Origin: Mesostigma viride
Taxonomy: Eukaryota > Streptophyta > Mesostigmatophyceae > Mesostigmatales > Mesostigmataceae
NCBI GenBank assembly: GCA_009746045.1
Contig: RPFO01000448.1
Coordinates: 4,204,419-4,268,418 of the forward strand
Length of the DNA: 64,000 nucleotides
Reading direction: 5' to 3'
Shown here: positions 11,723 through 60,182 of the stretch, in pieces
How the letters are laid out: each line of letters opens with the position of its first letter
Numbering within the stretch: position 1 is the stretch's first letter
Translations under genes and position numbers: made by a program
Notes under the pieces: model-generated
The model's input: the letters and a program-made list of their open reading frames with translations, nothing else
Databases searched by the model: none
Told to the model about the DNA's origin: nothing

Positions 11723-14700
11723 CACCTCCCTCTCCTTTTCTGTGTAGCAATCACTATATCCCTACACGCCCTCCCCTCTACCCCACTCCCATGGTACCTT
11801 CTTCATCCCACATCTCCCCTCCCCACTCCCCCAACGCCCTTCTCTCCCCCCCCCCCCCCTCCCTCCTCTCACCCGCCCCCCTCTTTTCAACCTCCCCCCA
11901 ACCCCAACCCCCAACCCCAGGAGATGTCAGAGTTTGCGTGCCTGGCCACGGAGGACGCGTTCGCGCTAAAGAACAAAGCGCGCCAGGCGCAAGCAGAACA
12001 GTCTGCCGCCGCCGCCAGCACCGCCGCCGCCAACCTGACCGCCTCCTACCCCAGCGACACGGGCCGCTCCTTGTTCCACAATCACCCGGAGACGCGCCCC
12101 ATCGGGTCCATGTCCCTCCTCGAGCGGTTGCGGACGACGGAACTGGGCCGGCCGAGCAGCGCGGTGGGGGCCAACGAGAGCTCCGGATTCAGCCCATCAT
12201 CGACCGGATTCAGCCCATCGCCCGACCTTGGGAGGGGCCCCCACGCGTCCCCCCCAGTGCACACGGATCGACACGGGTCCCTGTCCCTTCGGCTACGGCT
12301 GGGCGGCAGCGGCGCCATGGGCAGCCGAGGCAGCAGCACAATAGGGGGCCCTGTGAGTCCGCGTGGGGCCAGCTTTAGTCCCGGCGGTCCCCCGCTCTCT
12401 CCTCGCTCCCCCGCCTCCCCTCCCTCACGCCGATGGGGCTCCACTGTTGGCTTCGGGGCCCACGGGGGGCGGGGCAGCGCCAGCCCTCGCCGCATGACAA
12501 ACGCCAGCGGAAGAGGGTCGGTCAGCTCCGACGTGGGCATTACCCCGCAATCATGGGACGAGGTTGCGGGGGCAAAGGGGGGGGTTGCCAAGGGGGGGGC
12601 GGCAGGGGCGGGGTGCCTAGCACCCGGGTCAGCGCAGGGGCGGGCGGGGTGGCAGTTCCAGGGTGGGCGGGAGGCCTGGCCGACGTCCCCCACCGCGGGG
12701 GCGGGGCACCGCAAGAGCAAGCCGGCTTGGTCGGAGCTGAGAGCGATTGCCAAGAAGACAGGATGTGAGTGGCCCTAGTGAGGGGGTAGCAGTTGATGCC
12801 AGTTGTTAGGTCTTAGCAGGTAGATCCTAGTAGTTAGGGCCTGGTAGCTACGGAATGGTAGTCGCATGCATAAGAGTTAGGGCATATGTTTGGGAGCCTG
12901 TAGGGAGTTTTTTGAGGCAATCACTGGTAATAGGTGTGCAGGGCTCCAGACGCCAGTGAAGGGCTGCGTTGCTTTAGTTAGCGGCAGCATTGGAGAACTG
13001 AATAGGAAGTATATGGAGGCTGAATAGTAAGTACGTGGGGGGGAGCATGGCCGGCAGCATGGGATGTGGGTTGTCGGGGAAGAATGCTGGCTCAGGGCTA
13101 CCATTGCAGTAACATTAGAGGCGAGGGGCAATTAAAGCTCTTTTGGGTGGGGGATTTGCTATGCGCATCTCTGGGTTATGAACAGTGTTGTTTGTGTGCC
13201 ACTTGTCCTGTATCTATTGCCTCTCTTGATAGCATGCACAACGAGACAGCCAAATAGTTATGCAACAGTTTTTTTCCCTTTGTAAAATATCATCTGGCCA
13301 TCGCCTAATGCCATGTGGCCATGTGTCTGATGGTATCTGGCCCATTCGTCTAATATCAACTGTCTCACTTAGTCACTTTATACATCATCATCTTCAGTGA
13401 GTGGGCTAGTAGTCATTTGTCTCCCAATGTACGTAACTGTCTCGCCTTTCGTCTCCCTTGTCATGCAATCTATTCACATGCATCCCGTGCCACGCAGTGT
13501 ACGAGTCCACGCTCCGCACAATGCTCAAGTGCTTCCGGCACGCCATGGGGGCGGCCGGCAGTAACAGCGGCGCCAGCAGCGGGGCGGCCGCGAATGCTTC
13601 CACCGGCAATCGCGCCGCCAGCACACGCACCGGAGGTCCTGTCGTGCCCAGTACTCGACCCGATGCCGTCGTGGCCAATACCATGGGAACGGGGGGGGAT
13701 GGTGGCGGCGGCAGCAGTACCAAAAGCAGTAATGGAAGCAGCAGTAACAATGGGGGGGGCCATGCCACCGACGGGACAAATGACGGGGCCGCCTCAACGA
13801 GTTCAGGGGCCGGGTTGACCCCCATCATCACCTCAGTGCCCGCATCCGCCACGTCACCAGGGGCGATCGGCTCGCTGGCATTGAACCGGGACCAGTTCCG
13901 GGCGCTCATGTTTGCCGAGGGGATCCGCAACCACAGCGCAGCGGACCACTTGTTCAGCGTGTTTGACGCGGCCAAGGACGGGCGCGTCACGTTTGAGAGC
14001 TATGCGACGCTCATCGGGCTGCTGCAGAATGGGGACGATGATGAACGCACAAGCAGTGAGTGACGAATGGTAGCAGTAGTGATGAATGGTGGCAGTGGGT
14101 GATGAATGGTGGCAGCAAGTGATGAATGGTGGCAGTGAGTGATGAATGGTGGCAGCAAGTGATGAATGGTGGCAGTGAGTGATGAATGGTGGCAGTGGGT
14201 GATGAATGGTGGCAGCAAGTGATGAATGGTGGCAGTGAGTGATGAATGGTGGCAGCAAGTGATGAATGGTGGCAGTGAGTGATGAATGGTGGCAGTGAGT
14301 GATGAATGGTAGCAGCGAGTGATGAATGGTGGCAGTGAGTGATGAATGGTAGCAGTGAGTGACGAATGGTAGCAGTGAGTGATGAATGGTAGCAGTGAGT
14401 GATGAATGGTGGCAGTGAGTGATGAATGGTAGCAGCGAGTGATGAATGGTGGCAGCGAGTGATGAATGGTGGCAGCGAGTGATGAATGGTGGCAGTGAGT
14501 GATGAATGGTAGCAGTGAGTGATGAATGGTGGCAGTGAGTGATGAATGGTAGCAGTGAGTGATGAATGGTAGCAGTGAGTGATGAATGGTAGCAGTGAGT
14601 GATGAATGGTGGCAGTGGGCGATGAATGGTGGCAGTAAGTGATGAATGGTAGCAGTGAGTGATGAATGGTGGCAGTAGTGATGAATGGTAGCAGTGAGTG

Positions 14701-17700
14701 ATGAATGGTGGCAGTGAGTGATGAATGGTGGCAGTGGGCGATGAATGGTAGCAGTGAGTGATGAATGGTGGCAGTGGGCGATGAATGGTGGCAGTGAGTG
14801 ATGAATGGTAGCAGTAGTGATGAATGGTGGCAGTGAGTGATGAATGGTAGCAGTGAGTGATGAATGGTGGCAGTGGGTGATGAATGGTGGCAGTGAGTGA
14901 TGAATGGTGGCAGTAGTGATGAATGGTGGCAGTGAGTGATGAATGGTGGCAGTGAGTGATGAATGGTAGCAGTAAGTGATGAATGGTAGCAGTGAGTGAT
15001 GAATGGTGGCAGTGAGTGATGAATGGTGGCAGTGAGTGATGAATGGTAGCAGCGAGTGATGAATGGTGGCAGTGAGTGATGAATGGTAGCAGCGAGTGAT
15101 GAATGGTAGCAGTAGTGATGAATGGTGGCAGCGAGTGATGAATGGTGGCAGTGGGTGATGAATGGTAGCAGTGAGTGATGAATGGTAGCAGTAGTGATGA
15201 ATGGTAGCAGTAGTGATGGATGGTAGCAGTGAGTGATGAATGGTAGCATGAGCAGCGAGTGACAAATGGTAGCAAGGGCAGTGACGAATGGTAGCACGAG
15301 CAGTGACGAATGGTAGCAGCGAGTGATGAATGGTGGCAGCGAGTGGTGAATGGTGGCAGTGAGTGATGAATGGTTGCAGTGAGTGATGAATGGTCGATGA
15401 ATGGTAGCAGTGGTGACGAATGGTAGCAGTGAGTGACGAATGGTGGCAGTGAGTGATGAATGGTGGCAGTGGGTGATGAATGGTCGCAGTGGGCGGGGAA
15501 TGGTAGCAGCGAGTGATGAATGGTGGCAGTGAGTGATGAATGGTGGCAGTGAGTGATGAATGGTGGCAGTGAGTGATGAATGGTGGCAGTGAGTGATGAA
15601 TGGTAGCAGTGGGTGATGAATGGTGGCAGTGAGTGATGAATGGTGGCAGTGAGTGATGAATTGTAGCATTGAGTGATGAATGGTGGCAGTGAGTGATGAA
15701 TGGTGGCAGTGAGTGATGAATGGTAGCAGCAAGTGATGAATGGTGGCAGTGAGTGATGAATGGTGGCAGTGAGTGATGAATGGTGGCAGTGGGTGATGAA
15801 TGGTGGCAGTGAGTGATGAACGGTGGCAGTGAGTGATGAATGGTAGCAGCGAGTGATGAATGGTAGCTGTGAGTGATGAATGGGGAAAGTAGTGATGAAT
15901 GGTAGCAGTGAGTGCTGAATGGTGGCAGTAGTGATGAATGGTGGCAGTGAGTGATGAATGGTGGCAGTGAGTGATGAATGGTCGCACTGGGCGAGGAATG
16001 GTAGCAGCGAGTGATGAATGGTGGCAGTAGTGATGAATGGTGGCAGTGAGTGATGAATGGTCCATGAATGGTAGCAGTGGTGACGAATGGTAGCAGTGAG
16101 TGACGAATGGTGGCAGCGAGTGATGAATGGTGGCAGTGAGCGATGAATGGTAGCAGTGAGTGAAGAATGGTAGCATTGAGTGATGAATTGTAGCATTGAG
16201 TGAAGAATGGTGGCAGTGAGTGATGAATTATAGCATTGAGTGATGAATGGTAGCAGTGAGTGATGAATGGTAGCAGTGAGTGAAGAATGGTGGCAGTGAG
16301 TGATGAATGGTAGCAGTGAGTGATGAATGTTAGCAGTGAGTGATGAATGGTGGCAGTGAGTGACGAATGGTGGCAGTGAGTGATGAATGGTGGCAGTGAG
16401 TGATGAATGGTGGCAGTGAGTGATGAATGGTAGCATTGAGTGATGAATGGTGGCAGCGAGTGGTGAATGGTAGCAGTGAGTGATGAATGGTAGCATTGAG
16501 TGATGAATGGTAGCAGTAGTGATGAATGGTAGCAGTGAGTGAAGAATGGTGGCAGTGAGTGATGAATGGTGGCAGCGAGTGATGAATGGTGGCAGTGAGT
16601 GATGAATGGTGGCAGCGAGTGGTGAATGGTAGCAGTGAGTGATGAATGGTTGCAGTGAGTGATGAATGGTCGATGAATGGTAGCAGTGAGTGATGAATGG
16701 TAGCAGTGGTGATGAATGGTGGCAGTGAGTGATGAATGGTGGCAGTGAGTGATGAATGGTAGCAGTGAGTGATGAATGGTGGCAGTGAGTGATGAATTGT
16801 AGCATTGAGTGAAGAATGGTGGCAGAGGGTGATGAATGGTGGCAGTGAATGATGAATGGTGGCAGTGAGTGATGAATGGTGGCAGTGAGTGATGAATTGT
16901 AGCATTGAGTGAAGAATGGTGGCAGAGGGTGATGAATGGTGGCAGTGAATGATGAATGGTTGCAGTGAGTGATGAATGGTGGCAGTGAGTGATGAATGGT
17001 GGCAGTGAGTGATGAATGGTAGCAGTGAGTGATGAATGGTGGCAGTGAGTGTTGAATGGTAGCAGTAGTGATGAATGGTAGCAGTGAGTGATGAATGGGG
17101 GCAGTGAGTGATGAATGGTGGCAGTAGTGATGAATGGTGGCAGTGAGTGATGAATGGTGGCAGCGAGTGGTGAATGGTAGCAGTGAGTGATGAATGGTGG
17201 CAGTGAGTGATGAATTGTAGCATTGAGTGAAGAATGGTGGCAGAGGGTGATGAATGGTGGCAGTGAATGATGAATGGTGGCAGTGAGTGATGAATGGTGG
17301 CAGTGGTTGATGAATGGTAGCTGTGAGTGATGAATGGTGGCAGCGAGTGGTGAATGGTAGCAGTGAGTGATGAATGGTGGCAGTGAGTGATGAATGGTGG
17401 CAGTGAGTGATGAATGGTGGCAGTGAGTGATGAATGGTAGCAGTGAGTGATGAATGGTGGCAGTGAGTGATGAATGGTGGCAGTAGTGATGAATGGTGGC
17501 AGTGAGTGATGAATGGTGGCAGTGAGTGATGAATGGTGGCAGTAGTGATGAATGGTGGCAGTGAGTGATGAATGGTGGCAGTGAGTGATGAATGGTGGCA
17601 GTAGTGATGAATGGTGGCAGTGAGTGATGAATGATGGCAGTGAGTGATGAATGGTGGCAGTAGTGATGAATGGTGGCAGTGAGTGATGAATGGTGGCAGT

Positions 17701-20700
17701 GAGTGATGAATGGTGGCAGTGAGTGATGAATGGTAGCATTGAGTGATGAATGGTGGCAGTGAGTGACGAATGGTGGCAGTGAGTGATGAATGGTGGCAGT
17801 GAGTGATGAATGGTGGCAGTGAGTGATGAATGGTAGCATTGAGTGATGAATGGTGGCAGCGAGTGGTGAATGGTAGCAGTGAGTGATGAATGGTAGCAGT
17901 GAGTGTTGAATGGTAGCAGTAGTGATGAATGGTAGCAGTGAGTGATGAATGGTAGCAGTGAGTGATGAATGGTGGCAGTAGTGATGAATGGTGGCAGTGA
18001 GTGATGAATGGTGGCAGCGAGTGGTGAATGGTAGCAGTGAGTGATGAATGGTGGCAGTGAGTGATGAATTGTAGCATTGAGTGAAGAATGGTGGCAGAGG
18101 GTGATGAATGGTGGCAGTGAATGATGAATGGTGGCAGTGAGTGATGAATGGTGGCAGTGGTTGATGAATGGTAGCTGTGAGTGATGAATGGTGGCAGCGA
18201 GTGGTGAATGGTAGCAGTGAGTGATGAATGGTGGCAGTGAGTGATGAATGGTGGCAGTGAGTGATGAATGGTGGCAGTGAGTGATGAATGGTAGCAGTGA
18301 GTGATGGATGGTAGCAGTAAGTGATGAATGGTAGCAGTGAGTGAAGAATGGTGGCAGTGGGTGATGAATGGTGGCAGTGAGTGATGAATGGTGGCAGTGA
18401 GTGATGAATGGTGGCAGTGAGTGATGAATGGTAGCAGTGAGTGATGAATGGTGGCAGTGAGTGATGAATGGTAGCAGTAGTGATGAATGGTAGCAGTGAG
18501 TGATGAATGGTGGCAGTGAGTGATGAATGGTGGCAGTAGTGATGAATGGTGGCAGTGAGTGATGAATGGTGGCAGTGAGTGATGAATGGTGGCAGTGAGT
18601 GATGAATGGTGGCAGTGAGTGGTGAATGGTAGCAGTGAGTGATGAATGGTGGCAGTGAGTGATGAATGGTAGCAGTGAGTGAAGAATGGTGGCAGTGAGT
18701 GATGAATGGTGGCAGTGAGTGATGAATGGTGGCAGTAGTGATGAATGGTGGCAGTGGTGATGAATGGTAGCAGTGAGTGATGAATGGTGGCAGTAGTGAT
18801 GAATGGTGGCAGTGAGTGATGAATGGTGGCAGTGAGTGATGAATGGTGGCAGTAGTGATGAATGGTGGCAGTGAGTGATGAATGGTAGCAGTGAGTGATG
18901 AATGGTGGCAGTAGTGATGAATGGTGGCAGTGAGTGATGAATGGTGGCAGTGAGTGATGAATGGTGGCAGTGAGTGATGAATGGTGGCAGTGAGTGATGA
19001 ATGGTGGCAGTGAGTGATGAATGGTAGCAGTGAGTGATGAATGGTGGCAGCGAGTGATGAATGGTAGCAGTGAGTGATGAATGGTGGCAGTGAGTGATGA
19101 ATGGTGGCAGTGAGTGATGAATGGTGGCAGTGAGTGATGAATGGTGGCAGTGAGTGATGAATGGTGGCAGTGAGTGATGAATGGTGGCAGTGAGTGATGA
19201 ATGGTGGCAGTGAGTGATGAATGGTGGCAGTAGTGATGAATGGTGGCAGTGAGTGATGAATGGTGGCAGTGAGTGATGAATGGTAGCAGTAGTGATGAAT
19301 GGTAGCAGTGAGTGATGAATGGTGGCAGTGAGTGATGAATGGTGGCAGTGAGTGATGAATGGTAGCAGTGAGTGATGAATGGTGGCAGTGAGTGATGAAT
19401 GGTAGCAGTGAGTGATGAATGGTGGCAGTAGTGATGAATGGTAGCAGTGAGTGATGAATGGTGGCAGCGAGTGATGAATGGTGGCAGTGAGTGATGAATG
19501 GTAGCAGCGAGTGATGAATGGTAGCAGTAGTGATGAATGGTGGCAGCGAGTGATGAATGGTGGCAGTGAGTGATGAATGGTAGCAGTGAGTGATGAATGG
19601 TAGCAGTAGTGATGAATGGTAGCAGTAGTGATGAATGGTAGCAGTGAGTGATGAATGGTGGCAGTGAGTGATGAATGGTGGCAGTGGTGATGAATGGTGG
19701 CAGTGAGTGATGAATGGTGGCAGTAGTGATGAATGGTGGCAGTGAGTGATGAATGGTGGCAGTGAGTGATGAATGGTAGCAGTAGTGATGAATGGTAGCA
19801 GTGAGTGATGAATGGTGGCAGTGAGTGATGAATGGTGGCAGTGAGTGATGAATGGTAGCAGTGAGTGATGAATGGTGGCAGTGAGTGATGAATGGTAGCA
19901 GTGAGTGATGAATGGTGGCAGTGAGTGATGAATGGTAGCAGTGAGTGACGAATGGTAGCAGTGAGTGATGAATGGTAGCAGTGAGTGATGAATGGTGGCA
20001 GTGAGTGATGAATGGTAGCAGTGAGTGATGAATGGTAGCAGTGAGTGATGAATGGTGGCAGTAGTGATGAATGGTGGCAGTGAGTGATGAATGGTAGCAG
20101 TGAGTGATGAATGGTGGCAGTGAGTGATGAATGGTAGCAGTGAGTGATGAATGGTAGCAGTGAGTGATGAATGGTAGCAGTGAGTGATGAATGGTGGCAG
20201 TGGGCGATGAATGGTGGCAGTAAGTGATGAATGGTAGCAGTGAGTGATGAATGGTGGCAGTAGTGATGAATGGTAGCAGTGAGTGATGAATGGTGGCAGT
20301 GAGTGATGAATGGTGGCAGTGGCGATGAATGGTAGCAGTGAGTGATGAATGGTGGCAGTGAGTGATGAATGGTGGCAGTGAGTGATGAATGGTAGCAGTA
20401 GTGATGAATGGTGGCAGTGAGTGATGAATGGTAGCAGTGAGTGATGAATGGTGGCAGTGAGTGATGAATGGTGGCAGTGAGTGATGAATGGTGGCAGTGG
20501 GTGATGAATGGTGGCAGTGAGTGATGAATGGTGGCAGTAGTGATGAATGGTGGCAGTGAGTGATGAATGGTGGCAGTGAGTGATGAATGGTAGCAGTAAG
20601 TGATGAATGGTAGCAGTGAGTGATGAATGGTGGCAGTGAGTGATGAATGGTGGCAGTGAGTGATGAATGGTAGCAGCGAGTGATGAATGGTGGCAGTGAG

Positions 20701-23700
20701 TGATGAATGGTAGCAGCGAGTGATGAATGGTAGCAGTAGTGTTGAATGGTAGCAGTGAGTGATGAATGGTGGCAGCGAGTGATGAATGGTGGCAGTGAGT
20801 GATGAATGGTAGCAGCGAGTGATGAATGGTAGCAGTAGTGATGAATGGTGGCAGTGAGTGATGAATGGTGGCAGTGAGTGATGAATGGTAGCAGTGAGTG
20901 ATGAATGGTAGCAGTAGTGATGAATGGTAGCAGTAGTGATGGATGGTAGCAGTGGGTGATGAATGGTGGCAGTGAGTGATGAATGGTGGCAGTGGGTGAT
21001 GAATGGTGGCAGTGAGTGATGAATGGTGGCAGTAGTGATGAATGGTGGCAGTGAGTGATGAATGGTGGCAGTGAGTGATGAATGGTAGCAGTAAGTGATG
21101 AATGGTAGCAGTGAGTGATGAATGGTGGCAGTGAGTGATGAATGGTGGCAGTGAGTGATGAATGGTAGCAGTGAGTGATGAATGGTGGCAGTGAGTGATG
21201 AATGGTAGCAGCGAGTGATGAATGGTGGCAGTGAGTGATGAATGGTAGCAGTGAGTGATGAATGGTAGCAGTGAGTGATGAATGGTAGCAGTGAGTGATG
21301 AATGGTGGCAGTGAGTGATGAATGGTAGCAGCGAGTGATGAATGGTGGCAGCGAGTGATGAATGGTGGCAGCGAGTGATGAATGGTGGCAGTGAGTGATG
21401 AATGGTAGCAGTGAGTGATGAATGGTGGCAGTGAGTGATGAATGGTAGCAGTGAGTGATGAATGGTAGCAGTGAGTGATGAATGGTAGCAGTGAGTGATG
21501 AATGGTGGCAGTGGGCGATGAATGGTGGCAGTAGTGATGAATGGTAGCAGTGAGTGATGAATGGTGGCAGTAGTGATGAATGGTAGCAGTGAGTGATGAA
21601 TGGTGGCAGTGAGTGATGAATGGTGGCAGTGGGATGAATGGTAGCAGTGAGTGATGAATGGTGGCAGTGGGCGATGAATGGTGGCAGTGAGTGATGAATG
21701 GTAGCAGTAGTGATGAATGGTGGCAGTGAGTGATGAATGGTAGCAGTGAGTGATGAATGGTGGCAGTGGGTGATGAATGGTGGCAGTGAGTGATGAATGG
21801 TGGCAGTAGTGATGAATGGTGGCAGTGAGTGATGAATGGTGGCAGTGAGTGATGAATGGTAGCAGTAAGTGATGAATGGTAGCAGTGAGTGATGAATGGT
21901 GGCAGTGAGTGATGAATGGTGGCAGTGAGTGATGAATGGTAGCAGCGAGTGATGAATGGTGGCAGTGAGTGATGAATGGTAGCAGCGAGTGATGAATGGT
22001 AGCAGTAGTGATGAATGGTGGCAGCGAGTGATGAATGGTGGCAGTGGGTGATGAATGGTAGCAGTGAGTGATGAATGGTAGCAGTAGTGATGAATGGTAG
22101 CAGTAGTGATGGATGGTAGCAGTGAGTGATGAATGGTAGCATGAGCAGCGAGTGACAAATGGTAGCAAGGGCAGTGACGAATGGTAGCACGAGCAGTGAC
22201 GAATGGTAGCAGCGAGTGATGAATGGTGGCAGCGAGTGGTGAATGGTGGCAGTGAGTGATGAATGGTTGCAGTGAGTGATGAATGGTCGATGAATGGTAG
22301 CAGTGGTGACGAATGGTAGCAGTGAGTGACGAATGGTGGCAGTGAGTGATGAATGGTGGCAGTGGGTGATGAATGGTCGCAGTGGGCGGGGAATGGTAGC
22401 AGCGAGTGATGAATGGTGGCAGTGAGTGATGAATGGTGGCAGTGAGTGATGAATGGTGGCAGTGAGTGATGAATGGTGGCAGTGAGTGATGAATGGTAGC
22501 AGTGGGTGATGAATGGTGGCAGTGAGTGATGAATGGTGGCAGTGAGTGATGAATTGTAGCATTGAGTGATGAATGGTGGCAGTGAGTGATGAATGGTGGC
22601 AGTGAGTGATGAATGGTAGCAGCAAGTGATGAATGGTGGCAGTGAGTGATGAATGGTGGCAGTGAGTGATGAATGGTGGCAGTGGGTGATGAATGGTGGC
22701 AGTGAGTGATGAACGGTGGCAGTGAGTGATGAATGGTAGCAGCGAGTGATGAATGGTAGCTGTGAGTGATGAATGGGGAAAGTAGTGATGAATGGTAGCA
22801 GTGAGTGCTGAATGGTGGCAGTAGTGATGAATGGTGGCAGTGAGTGATGAATGGTGGCAGTGAGTGATGAATGGTCGCACTGGGCGAGGAATGGTAGCAG
22901 CGAGTGATGAATGGTGGCAGTAGTGATGAATGGTGGCAGTGAGTGATGAATGGTCCATGAATGGTAGCAGTGGTGACGAATGGTAGCAGTGAGTGACGAA
23001 TGGTGGCAGCGAGTGATGAATGGTGGCAGTGAGCGATGAATGGTAGCAGTGAGTGAAGAATGGTAGCATTGAGTGATGAATTGTAGCATTGAGTGAAGAA
23101 TGGTGGCAGTGAGTGATGAATTATAGCATTGAGTGATGAATGGTAGCAGTGAGTGATGAATGGTAGCAGTGAGTGAAGAATGGTGGCAGTGAGTGATGAA
23201 TGGTAGCAGTGAGTGATGAATGTTAGCAGTGAGTGATGAATGGTGGCAGTGAGTGACGAATGGTGGCAGTGAGTGATGAATGGTGGCAGTGAGTGATGAA
23301 TGGTGGCAGTGAGTGATGAATGGTAGCATTGAGTGATGAATGGTGGCAGCGAGTGGTGAATGGTAGCAGTGAGTGATGAATGGTAGCATTGAGTGATGAA
23401 TGGTAGCAGTAGTGATGAATGGTAGCAGTGAGTGAAGAATGGTGGCAGTGAGTGATGAATGGTGGCAGCGAGTGATGAATGGTGGCAGTGAGTGATGAAT
23501 GGTGGCAGCGAGTGGTGAATGGTAGCAGTGAGTGATGAATGGTTGCAGTGAGTGATGAATGGTCGATGAATGGTAGCAGTGAGTGATGAATGGTAGCATG
23601 GTGATGAATGGTGGCAGTGAGTGATGAATGGTGGCAGTGAGTGATGAATGGTAGCAGTGAGTGATGAATGGTGGCAGTGAGTGATGAATTGTAGCATTGA

Positions 23701-32700: not shown

Positions 32701-35700
32701 ATGGTGGCAGCGAGTGGTGAATGGTAGCAGTGAGTGATGAATGGTGGCAGTGAGTGATGAATTGTAGCATTGAGTGAAGAATGGTGGCAGAGGGTGATGA
32801 ATGGTGGCAGTGAATGATGAATGGTGGCAGTGAGTGATGAATGGTGGCAGTGGTTGATGAATGGTAGCTGTGAGTGATGAATGGTGGCAGCGAGTGGTGA
32901 ATGGTAGCAGTGAGTGATGAATGGTGGCAGTGAGTGATGAATGGTGGCAGTGAGTGATGAATGGTGGCAGTGAGTGATGAATGGTAGCAGTAGTGATGGA
33001 TGGTAGCAGTAAGTGATGAATGGTAGCATTGAGTGAAGAATGGTGGCAGAGGGTGATGAATGGTGGCAGTGAATGATGAATGGTGGCAGTGAGTGATGAA
33101 TGGTGGCAGTGGTTGATGAATGGTAGCTGTGAGTGATGAATGGTGGCAGCGAGTGGTGAATGGTAGCAGTGAGTGATGAATGGTGGCAGTGAGTGATGAA
33201 TGGTGGCAGTGAGTGATGAATGGTGGCAGTGAGTGATGAATGGTCGATTAATGGTAGCAGTGGTGACGAATTGTAGCATTGAGTGATGAATGGTAGCAGT
33301 GAGTGATGAATGGTGGCAGTGAGTGATGAATGGTGGCAGTAGTGATGAATGGTGGCAGTAGTGATGAATGGTAGCAGTAGTGATGGATGGTAGCAGTAAG
33401 TGATGAATGGTAGCAGTGAGTGATGAATGGTAGCAGTGAGTGATGAATGGTAGCAGTGAGTGATGAATGGTGGCAGTGGGTGATGAATGGTAGCAGTGAG
33501 TGATGAATGGTGGCAGTGAGTGATGAATGGTGGCAGTAGTGATGAATGGTGGCAGTGAGTGATGAATGGTGGCAGTGAGTGATGAATGGTGGCAGTAGTG
33601 ATGAATGGTGGCAGTGAGTGATGAATGATGGCAGTGAGTGATGAATGGTGGCAGTAGTGATGAATGGTGGCAGTGAGTGATGAATGGTGGCAGTGAGTGA
33701 TGAATGGTGGCAGTGAGTGATGAATGGTAGCATTGAGTGATGAATGGTGGCAGTGAGTGACGAATGGTAGCAGTGAGTGATGAATGGTGGCAGTGGGCGA
33801 TGAATGGTAGCAGTGAGTGGTGAATGGTAGCAGTGAGTGATGAATGGTGGCAGTGAGTGATGAATGGTGGCAGTAGTGATGAATGGTGGCAGTGAGTGAT
33901 GAATGGTGGCAGTGAGTGATGAATGGTGGCAGTAGTGATGAATGGTGGCAGTGAGTGATGAATGGTGGCAGTGAGTGATGAATGGTGGCAGTAGTGATGA
34001 ATGGTGGCAGTGAGTGATGAATGATGGCAGTGAGTGATGAATGGTGGCAGTAGTGATGAATGGTGGCAGTGAGTGATGAATGGTGGCAGTGAGTGATGAA
34101 TGGTGGCAGTGAGTGATGAATGGTAGCATTGAGTGATGAATGGTGGCAGTGAGTGACGAATGGTAGCAGTGAGTGATGAATGGTGGCAGTGGGCGATGAA
34201 TGGTGGCAGTGAGTGATGAATGGTGGCAGTGAGTGATGGATGGTGGCAGTGAGTGATGAATGGTAGCAGCGAGTGATGAATGTTAGCAGTGAGTGATGAA
34301 TGGTGGCAGTAGTGATGAATGGTGGCAGTGAGTGATGAATGGTTGCAGTGAGTGATGAATGGTGGCAGTGAGTGATGAATGGTGGCAGTGAGTGACGAAT
34401 GGTAGCAGTGAGTGATGAATGGTGGCAGTGAGTGATGAATGGTGGCAGTGAGTGATGAATGGTAGCAGTGGTGACGAATGGTAGCAGTGAGTGATGAATG
34501 GTAGCAGTGAGCGATGAATGGTAGCAGTGAGTGAAGAATGGTAGCATTGAGTGATGAATTGTAGCATTGAGTGAAGAATGGTGGCAGTGAGTGATGAATG
34601 GTAGCATTGAGTGATGAATGGTAGCAGTGAGTGATGAATGGTAGCAGTGAGTGAAGAATGGTGGCAGTGAGTGATGAATGGTAGCAGTGAGTGATGAATG
34701 TTAGCAGTGAGTGATGAATGGTGGCAGTGAGTGACGAATGGTGGCAGTGAGTGATGAATGGTGGCAGTGAGTGATGAATGGTGGCAGTGAGTGATGAATG
34801 GTAGCATTGAGTGATGAATGGTGGCAGCGAGTGGTGAATGGTAGCAGTGAGTGATGAATGGTAGCATTGAGTGATGAATGGTAGCAGTAGTGATGAATGG
34901 TAGTAGTGAGTGATGAATGGTGGCAGTAGTGATGAATGGTGGCAGCGAGTGATGAATGGTGGCAGTGAGTGATGAATGGTAGCAGTGAGTGATGAATGGT
35001 AGCAGTGGTGATGAATGGTGGCAGTGAGTGATGAATGGTGGCAGTGAGTGATGAATGGTAGCAGTGAGTGAAGAATGGTGGCAGTGAGTGATGAATGGTA
35101 GCAGTGAGTGATGAATGTTAGCAGTGAGTGACGAATGGTGGCAGTGAGTGATGAATGGTGGCAGTGAGTGATGAATGGTGGCAGTGAGTGATGAATGGTA
35201 GCATTGAGTGATGAATGGTGGCAGCGAGTGGTGAATGGTAGCAGTGAGTGATGAATGGTAGCAGTGAGTGTTGAATGGTAGCAGTAGTGATGAATGGTAG
35301 CAGTGAGTGATGAATGGGGGCAGTGAGTGATGAAATGTAGCATTGAGTGAAGAATGGTGGCAGTGAGTGATGAATGGTGGCAGCGAGTGGTGAATGGTAG
35401 CAGTGAGTGATGAATGGTGGCAGTGAGTGATGAATTGTAGCATTGAGTGAAGAATGGTGGCAGAGGGTGATGAATGGTGGCAGTGAATGATGAATGGTGG
35501 CAGTGAGTGATGAATGGTGGCAGTGGTTGATGAATGGTAGCTGTGAGTGATGAATGGTGGCAGCGAGTGGTGAATGGTAGCAGTGAGTGATGAATGGTGG
35601 CAGTGAGTGATGAATGGTGGCAGTGAGTGATGAATGGTGGCAGTGAGTGATGAATGGTAGCAGTAGTGATGGATGGTAGCAGTAAGTGATGAATGGTAGC

Positions 35701-38700
35701 ATTGAGTGAAGAATGGTGGCAGAGGGTGATGAATGGTGGCAGTGAATGATGAATGGTGGCAGTGAGTGATGAATGGTGGCAGTGGTTGATGAATGGTAGC
35801 TGTGAGTGATGAATGGTGGCAGCGAGTGGTGAATGGTAGCAGTGAGTGATGAATGGTGGCAGTGAGTGATGAATGGTGGCAGTGAGTGATGAATGGTGGC
35901 AGTGAGTGATGAATGGTCGATTAATGGTAGCAGTGGTGACGAATTGTAGCATTGAGTGATGAATGGTAGCAGTGAGTGATGAATGGTGGCAGTGAGTGAT
36001 GAATGGTGGCAGTAGTGATGAATGGTGGCAGTAGTGATGAATGGTAGCAGTAGTGATGGATGGTAGCAGTAAGTGATGAATGGTAGCAGTGAGTGATGAA
36101 TGGTAGCAGTGAGTGATGAATGGTAGCAGTGAGTGATGAATGGTGGCAGTGGGTGATGAATGGTAGCAGTGAGTGATGAATGGTGGCAGTGAGTGATGAA
36201 TGGTGGCAGTAGTGATGAATGGTGGCAGTGAGTGATGAATGGTGGCAGTGAGTGATGAATGGTGGCAGTAGTGATGAATGGTGGCAGTGAGTGATGAATG
36301 ATGGCAGTGAGTGATGAATGGTGGCAGTGAGTGATGAATGGTGGCAGTGAGTGATGAATGGTGGCAGTGAGTGATGAATGGTGGCAGTGAGTGATGAATG
36401 GTAGCATTGAGTGATGAATGGTGGCAGTGAGTGACGAATGGTAGCAGTGAGTGATGAATGGTGGCAGTGGGCGATGAATGGTAGCAGTGAGTGGTGAATG
36501 GTAGCAGTGAGTGATGAATGGTGGCAGTGAGTGATGAATGGTGGCAGTAGTGATGAATGGTGGCAGTGAGTGATGAATGGTGGCAGTGAGTGATGAATGG
36601 TGGCAGTAGTGATGAATGGTGGCAGTGAGTGATGAATGGTGGCAGTGAGTGATGAATGGTGGCAGTAGTGATGAATGGTGGCAGTGAGTGATGAATGATG
36701 GCAGTGAGTGATGAATGGTGGCAGTAGTGATGAATGGTGGCAGTGAGTGATGAATGGTGGCAGTGAGTGATGAATGGTGGCAGTGAGTGATGAATGGTAG
36801 CATTGAGTGATGAATGGTGGCAGTGAGTGACGAATGGTAGCAGTGAGTGATGAATGGTGGCAGTGGGCGATGAATGGTGGCAGTGAGTGATGAATGGTGG
36901 CAGTGAGTGATGGATGGTGGCAGTGAGTGATGAATGGTAGCAGCGAGTGATGAATGTTAGCAGTGAGTGATGAATGGTGGCAGTAGTGATGAATGGTGGC
37001 AGTGAGTGATGAATGGTTGCAGTGAGTGATGAATGGTGGCAGTGAGTGATGAATGGTGGCAGTGAGTGACGAATGGTAGCAGTGAGTGATGAATGGTGGC
37101 AGTGAGTGATGAATGGTGGCAGTGAGTGATGAATGGTAGCAGTGGTGACGAATGGTAGCAGTGAGTGATGAATGGTAGCAGTGAGCGATGAATGGTGGCA
37201 GTGAGTGATGAATGGTGGCAGTGAGTGATGAATGGTAGCAGTGAGTGAAGAATGGTAGCATTGAGTGATGAATTATAGCATTGAGTGAAGAATGGTGGCA
37301 GTGAGTGATGAATGGTGGCAGTGAGTGATGAATGGTGGCAGTGAGTGATGAATGGTAGCAGTGAGTGAAGAATGGTAGCATTGAGTGATGAATTATAGCA
37401 TTGAGTGAAGAATGGTGGCAGTGAGTGATGAATGGTGGCAGTGGGTGATGAATGGTAGCTGTGAGTGATGAATGGGGAAAGTAGTGATGAATGGTAGCAG
37501 TGAGTGCTGAATGGTGGCAGTGAGTGATGAATGGTGGCAGTGAGTGATGAATGGTAGCAGTGGTGACGAATGGTAGCAGTGAGTGATGAATGGTAGCAGT
37601 GAGCGATGAATGGTGGCAGTGAGTGATGAATGGTGGCAGTGAGTGATGAATGGTAGCAGTGAGTGAAGAATGGTAGCATTGAGTGATGAATTATAGCATT
37701 GAGTGAAGAATGGTGGCAGTGAGTGATGAATGGTGGCAGTGAGTGATGAATGGTGGCAGTGAGTGATGAATGGTAGCAGTGAGTGAAGAATGGTAGCATT
37801 GAGTGATGAATTATAGCATTGAGTGAAGAATGGTGGCAGTGAGTGATGAATGGTGGCAGTGGGTGATGAATGGTAGCAGTGAGTGATGAATGGTGGCAGT
37901 GAGTGATGGATGGTGGCAGTGAGTGATGAATGGTGGCAGTGAGTGATGAATGGTGGCAGTGAGTGATGAATGGTGGCAGTGAGTGATGAATGGTGGCAGT
38001 GAGTAATGAATGGTAGCAGTGAGTGAAGAATGGTAGCATTGAGTGATGAATTATAGCATTGAGTGAAGAATGGTGGCAGTGAGTGATGAATGGTGGCAGT
38101 GAGTGATGAATGGTGGCAGTGAGTGATGAATGGTAGCAGTGAGTGAAGAATGGTAGCATTGAGTGATGAATTATAGCATTGAGTGAAGAATGGTGGCAGT
38201 GAGTGATGAATGGTAGCAGTGAGTGATGAATGGTAGCAGTGAGTGATGAATGGTAGCAGTGAGTGATGAATGGTAGCAGTGAGTGATGAATGGTGGCAGC
38301 GAGTGATGAATGGTGGCAGTGAGTGATGAATGGTAGCAGTGAGTGAAGAATGGTGGCAGTGAGTGATGAATGGTGGCAGTGAGTGATGAATGGTGGCAGT
38401 GAGTGATGAATGGTGGCATTGAGTGATGAATGGTGGCAGTGAGTGATGAATGGTGGCAGTGAGTGATGAATGGTAGCAGTGAGTGATGAATGGTGGCAGT
38501 GAGTGATGAATGGTGGCAGTGAGTGATGAATGGTGGCAGTGAGTGACGAATGGTGGCAGTGAGTGATGAATGGTGGCAGTGGGTGATGAATGGTGGCAGT
38601 AGTCATGAATGGTAGCATTGAGTGAAGAATGGTAGCATTGAGTGATGAATTATAGCATTGAGTGATGAATGGTAGCAGTGAGTGATGAATGGTAGCAGTG

Positions 38701-41700
38701 AGTGATGAATGGTAGCAGTGAGTGATGAATGGTGGCAGCGAGTGATGAATGGTGGCAGTGAGTGATGAATGGTGGCAGCGAGTGATGAATGGTGGCAGTG
38801 AGTGATGAATGGTAGCAGTGAGTGATGAATGGTGGCAGTGAGTGGTGAATGGTAGCAGTGAGTGATGAATGGTAGCAGTGGGTGATGAATGGTGGCAGTG
38901 AGTGATGAATGGTGGCAGTGAGTGATGAATGGTGGCAGTGGGTGATGAATGGTAGCTGTGAGTGATGAATGGGGAAAGTAGTGATGAATGGTAGCAGTGA
39001 GTGCTGAATGGTGGCAGTAGTGATGAATGGTGGCAGTGAGTGATGAATGGTGGCAGTGAGTGATGAATGGTCGCACTGGGCGAGGAATGGTAGCAGCGAG
39101 TGATGAATGGTGGCAGTGAGTGATGAATGGTCCATGAATGGTAGCAGTGGTGACGAATGGTAGCAGTGAGTGACGAATGGTGGCAGTGAGTGATGAATGC
39201 TGGCATTGAGTGATGAATTGTAGCATTGAGTGAAGAATGGTGGCAGTGAGTGATGAATGTTAGCAGTGAGTGATGAATGGTAGCATTGAGTGATGAATGG
39301 TGGCAGTGAGTGATGAATGGTAGCAGTGAGTGAAGAATGGTGGCAGTGAGTGATGAATGGTAGCAGTGAGTGATGAATGTTAGCAGTGAGTGACGAATGG
39401 TGGCAGTGAGTGATGAATGGTGGCAGTGAGTGATGAATGGTGGCAGTGAGTGATGAATGGTAGCAGTGAGTGATGAATGGTGGCAGTGAGTGATGAATGG
39501 TGGCAGCGAGTGATGAATGGTAGCAGTGAGTGATGAATGGTGGCAGTGAGTGATGAATGGTGGCAGTGGGTGATGAATGGTGGCAGTGAGTGATGAATGG
39601 TGGCAGTGAGTGATGAATGGTGGCAGTGAGTGATGAATGGTAGCAGTGAGTGATGAATGGTGGCAGTGAGTGATGAATGGTAGCAGCGAGTGATGAATGG
39701 TAGCAGTGAGTGATGAATGGTGGCAGTGAGTGATGAATGGTAGCAGCGAGTGATGAATGGTGGCAGTGGGTGATGAATGGTGGCAGTGAGTGATGAATGG
39801 TGGCAGTGAGTGATGAATGGTGGCAGTGGGTGATGAATGGTGGCAGTGAGTGATGAATGGTGGCAGTGAGTGATGAATGGTGGCAGTGAGTGATGAATGG
39901 TAGCAGTGAGTGATGAATGGTGGCAGTGAGTGATGAAAGGTAGCAGCGAGTGATGAATGGTAGCAGTGAGTGATGAATGGTGGCAGTGAGTGATGAATGG
40001 TAGCAGTGGGTGATGAATGGTGGCAGTGAGTGATGAATGGTGGCAGTGAGTGATGAATGGTGGCAGTGGGTGATGAATGGTGGCAGTGAGTGATGAATGG
40101 TGGCAGTGAGTGATGAATGGTAGCAGTAGTGATGGATGGTAGCAGTGAGTGATGAATGGTGGCAGTGAGTGATGAATGGTGGCAGTGAGTGATGAATGGT
40201 AGCAGTAGTGATGAATGGTAGCAGCGAGTGATGAATGGTGGCAGTGAGTGATGAATGGTGGCAGCGAGTGATGAATGGTGGCAGCGAGTGATGAATGGTG
40301 GCAGTGAGTGATGAATGGTGGCAGCGAGTGATGAATGGTGGCAGTGAGTGATGAATGGTGGCAGCGAGTGATGAATGGTGGCAGTAGTGATGAATGGTGG
40401 CAGTAGTGATGAATTATAGCATTGAGTGATGAATGGTAGCAGTGAGTGTTGAATGGTAGCATTGAGTGATGAATTGTAGCATTGAGTGAAGAATGGTGGC
40501 AGAGGGTGATGAATGGTGGCAGTGAATGATGAATGGTGGCAGTGAGTGATGAATGGTGGCAGTGGTTGATGAATGGTAGCTGTGAGTGATGAATGGTGGC
40601 AGCGAGTGGTGAATGGTAGCAGTGAGTGATGAATGGTGGCAGTGAGTGATGAATGGTGGCAGTGAGTGATGAATGGTGGCAGTGAGTGATGAATGGTCGA
40701 TTAATGGTAGCAGTGGTGACGAATTGTAGCATTGAGTGATGAATGGTGGCAGTGAGTGATGAATGGTGGCAGTAGTGATGAATGGTGGCAGTAGTGATGA
40801 ATTGTAGCATTGAGTGAAGAATGGTAGCAGTGAGTGATGAATGGTAGCATTGAGTGATGAATGGTGGCAGTGAGTGATGAATGGTGGCAGTGAGTGATGA
40901 ATGGTAGCAGTGAGCTCATGAATGGTAGCATTGAGTGATGAATGGTGGCAGTGAGTGATGAATGGTGGCAGTAGTGATGAATGGTGGCAGTAGTGATGAA
41001 TGGTGGCAGTGAGTGATGAATGGTCGATTAATGGTAGCAGTGGTGACGAATTGTAGCATTGAGTGATGAATGGTAGCAGTGAGTGATGAATGTTAGCAGT
41101 GAGTGCTGAATGGTGGCAGTAGTGATGAATGGTAGCTGTGAGTGATGAATGGTGGCAGCGAGTGGTGAATGGTAGCAGTGAGTGATGAATGGTGGCAGCG
41201 AGTGATGAATGGTGGCAGTGAGTGATGAATGGTAGCAGTGAGTGATGAATGGTAGCAGTGAGTGAAGAATGGTAGCATTGAGTGATGAATGGTAGCATTG
41301 AGTGATTAATGGTGGCAGTGAGTGTTGAATGGTAGCATTGAGTGATGAATTGTAGCATTGAGTGAAGAATGGTGGCAGAGGGTGATGAATGGTGGCAGTG
41401 AATGATGAATGGTGGCAGTGAGTGATGAATGGTGGCAGCGAGTGATGAATGGTGGCAGCGAGTGATGAATGGTGGCAGTGAGTGATGAATGGTAGCAGTA
41501 GTGATGAATGGTGGCAGTGAGTGATGAATGGTGGCAGTGAGTGATGAATGGTGGCAGTAGTGATGAATGGTGGCAGTAGTGATGAATGGTAGCAGTAGTG
41601 ATGGATGGTAGCAGTAAGTGATGAATGGTAGCAGTGAGTGATGAATGGTGGCAGTGAGTGAAGAATGGTGGCAGTGAGTGATGAATGGTGGCAGTGAGTG

Positions 41701-43678
41701 ATGAATGGTGGCAGTAAGTGATGAATGGTAGCATTGAGTGATGAATGGTGGCAGTGAGTGACGAATGGTAGCAGTGAGTGATGAATGGTGGCAGTGGGCG
41801 ATGAATGGTGGCAGTGAGTGATGAATGGTGGCAGTGAGTGATGGATGGTGGCAGTGAGTGATGAATGGTAGCAGCGAGTGATGAATGTTAGCAGTGAGTG
41901 ATGAATGGTGGCAGTAGTGATGAATGGTGGCAGTGAGTGAGGAATGGTAGCAGCGAGTGATGAATGGTGGCAGTGAGTGATGAATGGTGGCAGTGAGTGA
42001 TGAATGGTGGCAGTGAGTGACGAATGGTAGCAGTGAGTGATGAATGGTGGCAGTGGGCGATGAATGGTGGCAGTGAGTGATGAATGGTGGCAGTGAGTGA
42101 TGGATGGTGGCAGTGAGTGATGAATGGTGGCAGTGAGTGACGAATGGTGGCAGTGAGTGATGAATGGTGGCAGTGGGTGATGAATGGTGGCAGTAGTGAT
42201 GAATGGTAGCAGTGAGTGATGAATGGTAGCAGTGAGCTCATGAATGGTAGCATTGAGTGATTAATGGTGGCAGTGAGTGATGAATGGTGGCAGTGGGTGA
42301 TGAATGGTGGCAGTGAGGGACGAATGGTAGCAGTGAGTGATGAATGGTAGCAGTGAGTGATGAATGGTGGCAGTAGTGATGAATGGTGGCAGTGAGTGAT
42401 GAATGGTGGCAGTGAGTGATGAATGGTGGCAGTGAGTGACGAATGGTAGCAGTGAGTGATGAATGGTGGCAGTGGGCGATGAATGGTGGCAGTGAGTGAT
42501 GAATGGTGGCAGTGAGTGATGGATGGTGGCAGTGAGTGATGAATGGTGGCAGTGAGTGATGAATGGTGGCAGTGAGTGATGAATGGTGGCAGTGGGCGAT
42601 GAATGGTGGCAGTGAGTGATTAATGGTGGCAGTGAGTGATGAATGGTGGCAGTGGGTGATGAATGGTGGCAGTGAGTGATGAATGGTGGCAGTGAGTGAT
42701 TAATGGTGGCAATGGGTGATGAATGGTGGCAGTGAATGATGAATGGTGGCAGTGGGTGATGAATGGTAGCAGTGAGTGGCAGCCAAGTTCCCTCCATGCG
42801 ATCTGTGGCGATGTGTAGTATCAGCAGTGAGTATTATTAGTGTATTATTAGTGTGCAGTATTATATGATGTGAAGTATTAGCAGTGTGTGCATATGGCAG
42901 AATGTCAGCCGTCGGGTGTGGATGTAGCCGCGGAGTCCTTGTTGGATCATGCTGCTATGGTACTCACGCACATGCAACCGCCCCCGTCCCATCCACCCCC
43001 ACTGCATCCACACATGCACCCCAACACGCATGCACACACATGCACACACATGCACACACATGCACACACATGCACACACATGCACACACATGCACACACA
43101 TGCACACACATGCACACACATGCACACACATGCACACACATGCACACACATGCACACACATGCACACACATGCACACACATGCACACACATGCACACCCA
43201 TGCACGTGCACATGCGCACACATGCACACACACACACACGTGCTCACATGCACACACACATCCACACGCAAGCACGCACACACACACTTGCACACTAAGT
43301 GTGCTTGTATCCATTATTTTGCTCGTATTTTGCTCTCCCCCATCCCCCCTGCCCCCCCCCCCTCCCCCTCCTGCAGTCATCTTCTCCATCTACGACATGC
43401 GCCGCTGCGGCTACATGACGATGCGCGACGTCGAGTACATGCTCACCTGCAGCCAGGCGCCGCCCAACGAGGAGGAGCTGGTATACATGGTGCAGACGAT
43501 ATTCGCGAAGCTCGACGTGTCCAACACGGGCCGCATCTCACTCGCCGAGTTCCGTGCCGGCGTCAAGAAGCGGCCTCTGCTGCTTGAGTTCTTCAACCGC
43601 TACTTCCAGCCGGTGACCGAGTACGAGGAGGAGATGGGCGGGGGGGGCATGGAGGACGCTGAGGATGGCGTTTGGTAG
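9866..43678 (+). CDS. EF-hand calcium-binding protein gene with a 29-kb intron (overview)
   Basis: The recognised exons are 9866-10210, 11921-12764, 13498-14055 and 43377-43678; one more exon near 10772 is possible. Junction phases agree (0, 1, 1), and all three donors I can define are GTGAGT. The product is at least 681 aa: a long disordered Ser/Pro/Gly/Ala-rich N-terminus and a C-terminal EF-hand module of NCS/calcineurin-B-like layout. Calcium sensing is likely (family knowledge); the partner is unknown. The coding frame rejoins exactly across the 29.3-kb intron, which completes the second EF-hand (T-S-I-I-F-S-I-Y-D). This is good evidence that the two halves belong together. The length of that intron could limit expression. 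Gene start and exon 2 are the weak points. Confidence 0.75.
11390..11555. repeat. Minisatellite of CACTATACAGTGT units
   Basis: About ten imperfect units of 14-15 bp occur here. Each unit contains CACTATACAG-GTGTCA-like sequence, which is itself partly palindromic (ACTATA/TATAGT). Confidence 0.8.
11682..11721. repeat. (CA)n microsatellite
   Basis: About 20 uninterrupted CA dinucleotides lie upstream of a polypyrimidine-rich stretch and the exon 3 acceptor. Confidence 0.95.
11921..12764 (+). CDS. EF-hand gene, exon 3 (Ser/Pro-rich region)
   Basis: The acceptor CAACCCCAG|GAGATGTCAGAG opens 281 codons with no stop. The first part (M-S-E-F-A-C-L-A-T-E-D-A-F-A-L-K-N-K-A-R) is likely helical and is followed by an Ala-rich stretch. 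The remainder is disordered, with repeated F-S-P, G-P-V-S-P-R and S-P-A-S-P-P sites that look like proline-directed kinase targets. It ends K-S-K-P-A-W-S-E-L-R-A-I-A-K-K-T-G at donor GGAT|GTGAGTGG, phase 1. A start at the internal ATG 11924 cannot be excluded. Confidence 0.7.
12765..13497 (+). other. Intron of the EF-hand gene (733 bp)
   Basis: The intron runs from donor GTGAGTGG to acceptor CCACGCAG. It contains diffuse short repeats of TAGTAGTTAGG/TAGCAGG type near the start and nothing else recognisable. Confidence 0.6.
13498..14055 (+). CDS. EF-hand gene, exon 4 (first EF-hand)
   Basis: There are 186 codons in phase 1-1. It starts Y-E-S-T-L-R-T-M-L-K-C-F-R-H-A-M, followed by about 100 residues of Gly/Ser/Ala/Thr low complexity. 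The end is L-N-R-D-Q-F-R-A-L-M-F-A-E-G and then an EF-hand, H-L-F-S-V-F-D-A-A-K-D-G-R-V-T-F-E-S. The loop keeps D1, D5, G6 and V8 but has Ser at position 12 instead of Glu, so calcium binding there may be weak. The last codons (D-D-D-E-R-T-S) end at donor AGCA|GTGAGTGACG, the first unit of the satellite. Read-through into the intron gives a stop almost at once. Confidence 0.82.
14800..25190 (+). repeat. Higher-order duplication inside the satellite (offset about 6.9 kb)
   Basis: Rare variants act as markers. The block ATGAGCAGCGAGTGACAAATGG then AAGGGCAGTGACG at about 15245 recurs at about 22138, and the TGTTAGCAG variant at 16328 recurs at 23221. Intervening variants keep the same order. About 3.4 kb (14.8-18.3 kb) is thus repeated at 21.7-25.2 kb, almost base for base. 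Confidence 0.8.
26640..36650 (+). repeat. Further satellite segment duplications (offset about 2.7 kb)
   Basis: The TCGATTAATGG junction occurs at about 26038, 26867, 29588, 33242, 35916, 40696 and 41029. The ATGAGCAGCG marker recurs at about 28400 and 31123. The rare GGTAGTAGTGAG variant occurs at about 32228 and 34901. Segments of 2-2.7 kb have been copied in direct orientation at least twice. Confidence 0.75.
37230..38190 (+). repeat. 120-bp (6-unit) higher-order repeat in the satellite
   Basis: The series GTGAAGAATGGTAGCATTG, then GATGAATTATAGCATTG, then GTGAAGAATGG recurs at about 37245, 37365, 37665, 37785, 38025 and 38145, often at a spacing of exactly 120 bp. This points to local amplification of a six-unit block. 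Confidence 0.75.
42779..43376 (+). other. Non-satellite end of the giant intron
   Basis: It contains degenerate TATTATTAGTGTG repeats (42820-42890), a 10-bp CACACATGCA array, and a long C-rich polypyrimidine tract ending CCCCTCCTGCAG, the acceptor at 43376. Confidence 0.7.
43022..43200. repeat. 10-bp CACACATGCA tandem array
   Basis: About 17 perfect or near-perfect copies of alternating purine-pyrimidine sequence, continuing as interrupted CA/TG repeats to about 43290. The sequence type is prone to form Z-DNA (general knowledge). Confidence 0.92.
43377..43678 (+). CDS. EF-hand gene, last exon (EF-hands 2 and 3)
   Basis: The exon begins in phase 1 after CTGCAG. EF-hand 2 (F-S-I-Y-D-M-R-R-C-G-Y-M-T-M-R-D) lacks acidic residues at positions 3 and 5 and is probably non-binding. 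EF-hand 3 (F-A-K-L-D-V-S-N-T-G-R-I-S-L-A-E-F) has D1, S3, T5, G6, I8 and E12, a canonical loop. A tail K-K-R-P-L-L-L-E-F-F-N-R-Y-F and an acidic end precede the stop TAG at 43676. Spacing of the hands and the L-L-E-F-F tail recall recoverin/calcineurin-B-like proteins. Confidence 0.88.
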
Positions 43679-53382: not shown

Positions 53383-53880
53383 CCTTGCGTTCTAGCCTGC
53401 ACTTACTATGCCGCACGCGAGGCTGGGCGTTGCTCGCTGCGTGGTATTGCGGGGTGACTGGCTCTGGACGTTGCCAGGAAGCTATCTTTTTAGGCAACCA
53501 CACCTGGCACACTGAACGTCCAGCACGTTCCTTGGCTTTGCATGTGCTTGTATGATGACACGGCGGCCGCTGGTGCGTCCACGTCCGCCTGCAATTCGTT
53601 GTACCGAAGAAGTTGAACGGCTTTTCTGCACCTCAGGGCCGATGGCATAAAGTTTTAGTTTTGCAGGCAGGCGCACGGCTCACGGGCAGCGCTTCGTTTA
53701 GACTTTAGACAGCCGGCGCCGCGCCGGCAACAATTTCCCTAATGCCGGCCAATAGCCGGCGTAGGCCGGCCACGAGCTGGCCAAGTACCTGGCACACCCC
53801 GCGAGTCGCGGGAGTGCCGGGCTTCTGCCGGCCCGGGCCCCGGCGCCTGGCGGGCGGGCATTTTAGTGTTATGCCGGCTC
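53383..53880. promoter_or_regulatory. Upstream region of PreP with a GCCGGC-rich block
   Basis: Up to 53700 there is no recognisable gene. At 53710-53880 a very GC-rich block holds about seven GCCGGC palindromes plus GCGCCGCGCC, GGCCCGGGCC and CCCCGCGAGTCGCGGG inverted repeats. It could be a CpG-rich promoter segment or a degraded repeat. Confidence 0.4.

Positions 53881-59132: not shown

Positions 59133-60182
<1,050 letters not shown>

Follow-up and report, generated by a model that had tools for sequence, protein, structure and literature searches.

How is an intron spliced correctly when its donor site recurs hundreds of times along its length, and how does such an intron come into being? 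Both questions are raised by an EF-hand gene located in the 64,000-nucleotide stretch of the Mesostigma viride genome that is analysed here (hereafter, the window; the source genome comprises 439.9 Mb in 2,243 contigs). The gene contains a 29-kilobase intron which consists almost wholly of ~1,450 copies of a 20-base unit.

The two exons flanking this intron can be assigned to one gene, in agreement with the first-pass annotation, because they jointly encode a continuous EF-hand fold. Alone, the upstream exon, with its own acceptor at 13497, produces a weak match to EF-hand_8 in the profile search, below the cut-off (0.0081). When the two exons are joined as A/TC (here and below, the slash marks the splice boundary), the Pfam match to EF-hand_7 reaches 1.9e-12, and the search against PDB retrieves NCS-1 and calcineurin-B-like chains with values of 1e-12 to 1e-11, in an alignment that crosses the junction 14055/43377 without a gap. 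An uninterrupted fold of this kind is what splicing of 14055 to 43377 would produce and, judging from the sequence, this connection in the mRNA is well supported. Reading past 14055 in the same frame gives AGT GAG TGA; therefore, any transcript spliced from a later donor would contain a stop at 14061-14063, and the immediate termination that had been predicted for the use of later units follows directly from the frame of the exon. The coordinates of all these features are collected in Table 1.

Table 1. Location of the exons, splice signals and repeats in the window.
Feature	Positions	Strand	Basis
Swi3-like gene, first copy of the duplication: last 19 nt of exon and first 18 nt of intron	7917..7953	-	donor 7934
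Swi3-like gene, second copy of the duplication, within the intron	7882..7916	-	sequence
EF-hand gene, upstream exon	13498..14055	+	frame; end AGC A/, phase 1
True donor GTGAGT, first unit of the array	14056..14061	+	sequence; frame A/TC continues the EF-hand fold
Stop TGA for any transcript from a later donor	14061..14063	+	open frame ends there
20-bp minisatellite, 1,451 full GTGAGTGATGAATGGTRGCA units and a partial one, 90 kinds	14056..42778	+	wrap-around alignment
Extra AGCAGTGAGT copy outside the array	42827..42832	+	U1 pairing -7.6, strongest in the intron after 42790
Second minisatellite, 3' part of the EF-hand intron: (ACACACATGC) x27	43024..43295	+	Tandem Repeats Finder
Pyrimidine run of 21 nt and acceptor CTGCAG/	43352..43376	+	sequence
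EF-hand gene, last exon, EF-hand pair, through stop TAG	43377..43678	+	EF-hand_7 5.3e-08 alone

The array is tied to the exon-intron boundary both in position and in phase. Tandem Repeats Finder reports a single array at 14053-42778 (period 20, 1451.5 copies), that is, from 3 nt inside the exon end, and in the wrap-around alignment the first unit begins at intron base +1 (14056). The boundary itself reads CACAAGCA/GTGAGTGACGAATGG, and the register runs from the exonic CACAAGCA into GTGAGTGACGAATGGTAGCA, GTAGTGATGAATGG and so on, with the unit in phase with the donor. Scanning the window with the unit yields 1,245 matches at three or fewer mismatches, compared with 0.09 expected by chance. The 1,451 aligned units thus confirm the existence of an intronic satellite of 28.7 kb that is phase-locked to the donor at 14055/14056. 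The composition of the array is strongly asymmetric, the transcribed-sense strand of 14056-42778 containing 6% C with a GC skew of about +0.7 to +0.8, an asymmetry that might favour R-loops. On the minus strand of the array, frames stay open for as many as 6,415 aa, in our view a mechanical effect of the 20-bp unit.

The first-pass annotation envisaged a donor in each unit and over a thousand potential donors ahead of one acceptor; not all units, however, repeat the donor. The GTGAGT hexamer is exact in 861 of the 1,451 units and GT occupies the donor position in 1,181, so the signal is absent from part of the array. Among the 1,451 units that follow the first one (the partial unit included), 837 are identical to the true donor from -3 to +6, and 250 from -4 to +8. 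Duplex energies with the 5' end of U1 were calculated with ViennaRNA; by this measure, 839 of the 1,451 later units match or surpass the true donor in their pairing, 24 of them surpassing it. The claim thus stands in that hundreds of donors of equal sequence face a single strong acceptor.

The abundance of donors is not matched by acceptors. The longest pyrimidine run inside the array is 3 nt, compared with 21 nt at the true acceptor, and the best 20-nt tract preceding an AG is 45% pyrimidine, compared with 95%; splicing from within the array is therefore implausible. The units lack the acceptor joined to a donor that characterizes recursive splice site arrays, and recursive splicing in its usual form appears unlikely here.

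How much of the exon takes part in the repeat is a separate matter. The end of the exon had been interpreted as the ancestral half-unit, and indeed it resembles the unit at GATGAA and AGCA. An equal score is attained by 454 of the 68,284 unique 22-mers of the window, by 24 of the 3,764 that precede GT, by 5 of the 1,178 that precede GTG, and by none of the 83 that precede GTGAG. Once AGCA is granted, the resemblance becomes common (28 of 328 22-mers ending in AGCA; 738 of 20,000 shuffles with AGCA fixed), and the exon part alone scores 16 in the array intron, which does not exceed the non-self maximum of 19 in the introns of other genes. The shared AGCA is thus beyond doubt, the longer likeness is weak, and an ancestral half-unit in the exon is unproven. 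Because the exonic contribution amounts to a few nucleotides at most, the array is best described as donor-phased rather than as proven to span the boundary.

The internal structure of the array carries traces of its growth. Two stretches of identical units, 99 and 79 units long, are found again 6,893 and 6,892 bases away, respectively, and others at distances of 2.67-2.72 kb; in 5 shuffled versions of the array, such stretches reached no more than 5-7 units. Two pairs of 2.7-kb blocks are 99.95% and 99.85% identical when aligned with MAFFT. For the 6.9-kb blocks, MAFFT gave 93% identity with 241 gap columns, an artefact of aligning repeats, and the unit runs were used instead. This block structure is that expected of repeated unequal exchange or conversion and, in the one assembly at hand, is consistent with instability of length. 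The junction AGCA/GTGAGTGACGAATGGTAGCA/GT contains two AGCAGT motifs with a spacing of 20 nt, the first of which straddles the end of the exon.

Of the 20 six-base windows that the cyclic unit yields, the donor hexamer ranks second from the bottom in conservation (59% intact, compared with up to 93%), a rank that argues against selection for donors. Selection against decoy donors was considered as well, but one other shift is lower still, and single-change kinds are not more numerous in the donor hexamer (8 versus 19), so the low conservation is recorded as an observation. Weakening of the decoys close to the true donor was sought along the array and no clear gradient was found, with intact hexamers in 3 of the first 10 units, 10 of the first 20 and 29 of the first 50, compared with 861 of 1,451 overall.

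A search of the same genome with the array, in which very common words are skipped, returned 9 places, the best being 73% identical to a 21-bp unit; the other units that were read differ, so the same satellite was not detected elsewhere by this search. In viral and prokaryote collections, from which records of this genome are perhaps excluded, no exact match to a 30-base pattern was found.

Although this particular unit was not recovered at another place, the copying of splice boundaries is not unique to the EF-hand gene: boundary copies are present also at a Swi3-like gene and at the L009, L026 and kinesin loci of the same genome. Five donors in the window were tested, of which those of the Swi3-like gene and of the array were positive (0 of 300 shuffles each) and three negative. 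In the Swi3-like gene, the boundary is part of a 37-bp tandem pair, with adjoining copies (7953-7917 and 7916-7882); the Swi3 domain is recognized over both junctions of the gene (1.2e-16), and the score of the exon part of the duplication alone was reached in 2 of 500 shuffles. None of the five acceptors tested in the window shows a clear boundary copy; that of the array intron itself has a score of 20, reached in 1 of 300 shuffles, which we attribute to the C-rich tract. As for the remainder of the window, an M16C/PreP-like protease of 1,091 residues is encoded on the minus strand at 50116-53391 in one open frame with no intron seen (M16C_assoc, 2.9e-73; PreP_C, 2.1e-64), an open frame with a MULE transposase domain (1.3e-15) lies on the plus strand at 61997-63766, another tandem repeat, (GCAACA) x81 with 99% match, occupies 59434-59919 within a long open frame, and no RNA families were found in the window.

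Another series of donors is found in the gene at L009 (contig C1879), where an intron opens with CTGCA/GTGAGT and contains 39 donors spaced 42 bp apart, the true one included. GTGAGT is present in 34 of the 39, and CTGCA is the only part of the exon that is shared. This intron was found through the search with the array and hence is not an independent case. In the next intron of the same gene, the exon end GGGGAGATCARCGAG is repeated together with the donor in 52-bp units, the exon part being 16/17 identical (0 of 500 shuffles). The L009 gene has no Pfam match over the cut-off and no PDB match, and its exons are defined by open frames and splice phase. At a kinase locus (L026:2130-2360), the end of a MAPK-like coding sequence recurs downstream together with ~40 nt of the coding part, a match reached in 0 of 500 shuffles; the copied end is either a donor or a stop codon. 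A kinesin intron (L057:2072-3276) contains a 60-bp, 20-copy array which starts 290 nt downstream of the donor and has AG/GTGAGG in its unit, with copies of the exon end nearer to the donor lying in between; at another kinesin locus, L058, the array starts from -3. Exon sequence is part of the repeat unit in the Swi3-like gene, the second L009 intron, L057 and L063.

The frequency of such copies was assessed in a sample of the best 30 kinesin loci, picked regardless of repeats. By rule, 20 donors were retained (10 of the 30 dropped), and 11 of the 30 loci were dropped from the acceptor test. For five of the 20 donors (L047, L057, L058, L063 and L064), the boundary is found again within the 400 nt that follow, at a score of at least 26, compared with 2 of 380 when the boundaries are matched to the introns of other loci (p = 3.7e-6); of these, L064 is weak given that it matches other introns too. 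The exon starts are copied in the preceding 400 nt in 6 of 19 cases, compared with 0 of 342 non-self comparisons; these acceptor copies run 12-28 nt past the boundary, and L061, one of the six, is possibly not a real acceptor. When all 30 donors are combined, including that of the array and the one found through it, 10 of 30 are positive, compared with 5 of 870, and with the exon part only, at a score of 22, 6 of 30, compared with 8 of 870.

The excess over introns in general is smaller. Interior intron positions are positive in 16 of 160 cases, some of them possibly falling outside introns that are short, an effect that would depress the interior rate, and exon positions in 1 of 40. Donors and acceptors taken together (11 of 39) exceed the interior positions (p = 0.0053), and donors alone show a marginal excess (p = 0.063). 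An earlier run on the kinesins, at a score of 34, gave 2 of 30 for the best donor, 4 of 30 for any of three donors, 9 of 120 for introns and 0 of 60 for exons, and therefore no excess over introns; with donors chosen by coding score in the window and the loci (n = 24), boundary copies at a score of 34 numbered 4, compared with 3 for the intron control and 0 for exons. The 400-nt window and the score of 26 were fixed after these earlier data had been seen, so the kinesin rates call for an independent sample. Boundary copies are real and not rare in this genome; their rate and their excess over interior positions are, given the small sample, provisional.

Related structures have been described in other organisms, so that the statement in the first-pass annotation that no such case is known has to be withdrawn. 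In amphioxus, tandem repeats across exon-intron boundaries, known as ‘mirages', are reported in the genes for Adh3 (where the units are 10-72 bp; PMC3087553), globin, troponin C and PGBD5, at both 5' and 3' ends of introns and with normal mRNA (PMC3087553, PMC3902484). As in the mirages, the array is a tandem repeat at a boundary, its units are short, and many of them carry splice signals. The mirages, as these reports describe them, affect both intron ends and change in length by unequal exchange (PMC3087553, PMC3902484). The array differs in size, with 1,451 units and 28.7 kb compared with the few units of the mirages (3 and 6 in the BflGb6 haplotypes), and in that its unit includes little or no exon sequence, although other introns of the same genome do have an exon part. 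What the EF-hand gene contains is, then, related to a kind of repeat already on record, with its great size and its phasing to the donor as distinctive traits.

Other systems share single aspects with the array. The tandem repeats of Chlamydomonas and Volvox reach their highest density in introns and are situated nearer to the junctions (PMC3887541); that survey counts motifs and, in the sections drawn on here, does not state whether the units contain a donor or an exon end. The giant introns of Drosophila kl-3 and kl-5 are filled with satellites and reach megabase size (PMC6508621), so that there, too, an intron is inflated by a satellite in a gene that apparently works, but the donor content of the units, evident in the array, is not stated in the part of that report used here. 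Intron gain by tandem duplication, as in the Rogers model (cited in PMC3087553) and in the potato RdRp gene (PMC4974935), resembles the array in that the duplication brings splice signals with it; in the array, however, an existing intron has been lengthened and no new intron is shown. A literature search, in which few subscription journals were covered, yielded among the entries listed no case of a minisatellite intron built on its donor that would be of the size of the array.

Taken together, these observations make it probable that the array is a neutral intronic minisatellite derived from the donor, with the first donor kept in use by exon definition and U1/Pol II, and with errors removed by NMD. 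The array would have grown from the first 20 nt of the intron: slippage or unequal exchange between the two AGCAGT motifs would have produced the first extra unit, and block duplications of ~2.7 and 6.9 kb, the blocks being observed in the array and their order one that we infer, would have raised the number to ~1,450. During transcription, the first donor would be defined across the exon together with the acceptor at 13497 and would meet the U1 carried along by Pol II before any other unit does, both of which would favour it over the later ones. In human cells, the nascent 5' splice site is reported to be paired to Pol II-tethered U1 while the intron is being synthesized, and the authors, although they cite a 1:1 complex, infer that several 5' sites may be held (PMC8316553), which would count against the account based on the first donor. 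Without an acceptor in the array, no splicing would occur inside it, and transcripts from later donors, having met the TGA at 14061, would be passed to NMD, leaving the errors silent.

Donor choice could also be loose, with many units spliced to 43377, most transcripts carrying the TGA and the array acting as a brake on the gene. We consider this unlikely, even though 837 of the later units have the sequence of the true donor from -3 to +6, 839 match or surpass it in U1 pairing, and the strong site at 42827 is the nearest to the acceptor. Competition between human donors is known to be settled in some cases in favour of the intron-proximal one; in DOK7, SRSF1 shifts the choice to the intron-proximal of two sites (PMC5585400), which by analogy would favour the late units or the 42827 site, contrary to the account based on the first donor. 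On the other side, normal mRNA is reported from the amphioxus genes whose splice sites are duplicated (PMC3087553, PMC3902484), and the lack of a clear drop in intact hexamers among the first decoys, such as costly misuse might bring about, does not fit. Less probable again is an ordinary satellite that began within the intron and only afterwards extended to the donor or took its place, the unit not stemming from the splice site and the phase lock being a by-product. Interior intron positions are often duplicated (16 of 160) and the exon half-unit is weak, as such an origin would allow, but the start of the array within 3 nt of the exon end and its exact phase count for an origin at the donor, and the same arrangement is found at L009, with its 39 donors from the exon end, and at L058.

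Two further readings appear very improbable. One is that selection maintains the donors, which would bind U1 along the array and thereby protect the long intron from early polyadenylation, or would regulate the gene. Hundreds of U1-complementary sites are available and TGTAA and AATAAA are absent from the array, but most 5-mers are absent anyway from a repeated 20-mer, and the donor hexamer is among the least conserved parts of the unit. The other is that the assembly is in error or that the two exons come from different genes. Long near-identical blocks can mislead assemblers; nevertheless, the array lies within a contig of at least 4.27 Mb, its longest exact run extends over 99 units (~2 kb), the blocks are distinguished by unit differences, and the EF-hand alignment is unbroken over the junction.

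With the neutral, donor-derived minisatellite as the preferred reading, the array may represent the largest example seen, in what is a small sample, of a recurring copying of boundary-spanning segments at both ends of introns. Boundary copying may, as we tentatively propose, generally drive the lengthening of introns and the build-up of redundant splice sites in this lineage, affecting about a quarter of the intron ends and, in the array, yielding ~840 donors equal to the true one in U1 pairing. If so, the spliceosome must choose the exon-proximal site by its position and not by its sequence, and the gene would amount to a natural experiment on the choice of the 5' splice site. To our knowledge, most tests of donor competition involve two or a few engineered sites. 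The array offers hundreds of donors of equal sequence, ~20 nt apart, with one acceptor and with an in-frame stop behind the first of them, so that long-read RNA of this one gene would tell whether a donor is chosen by order, by exon context or by chance, and to what extent NMD masks the errors. The recurrence of boundary copies in the genome would provide a handle on how introns lengthen and on whether new splice sites arise from boundary duplication.
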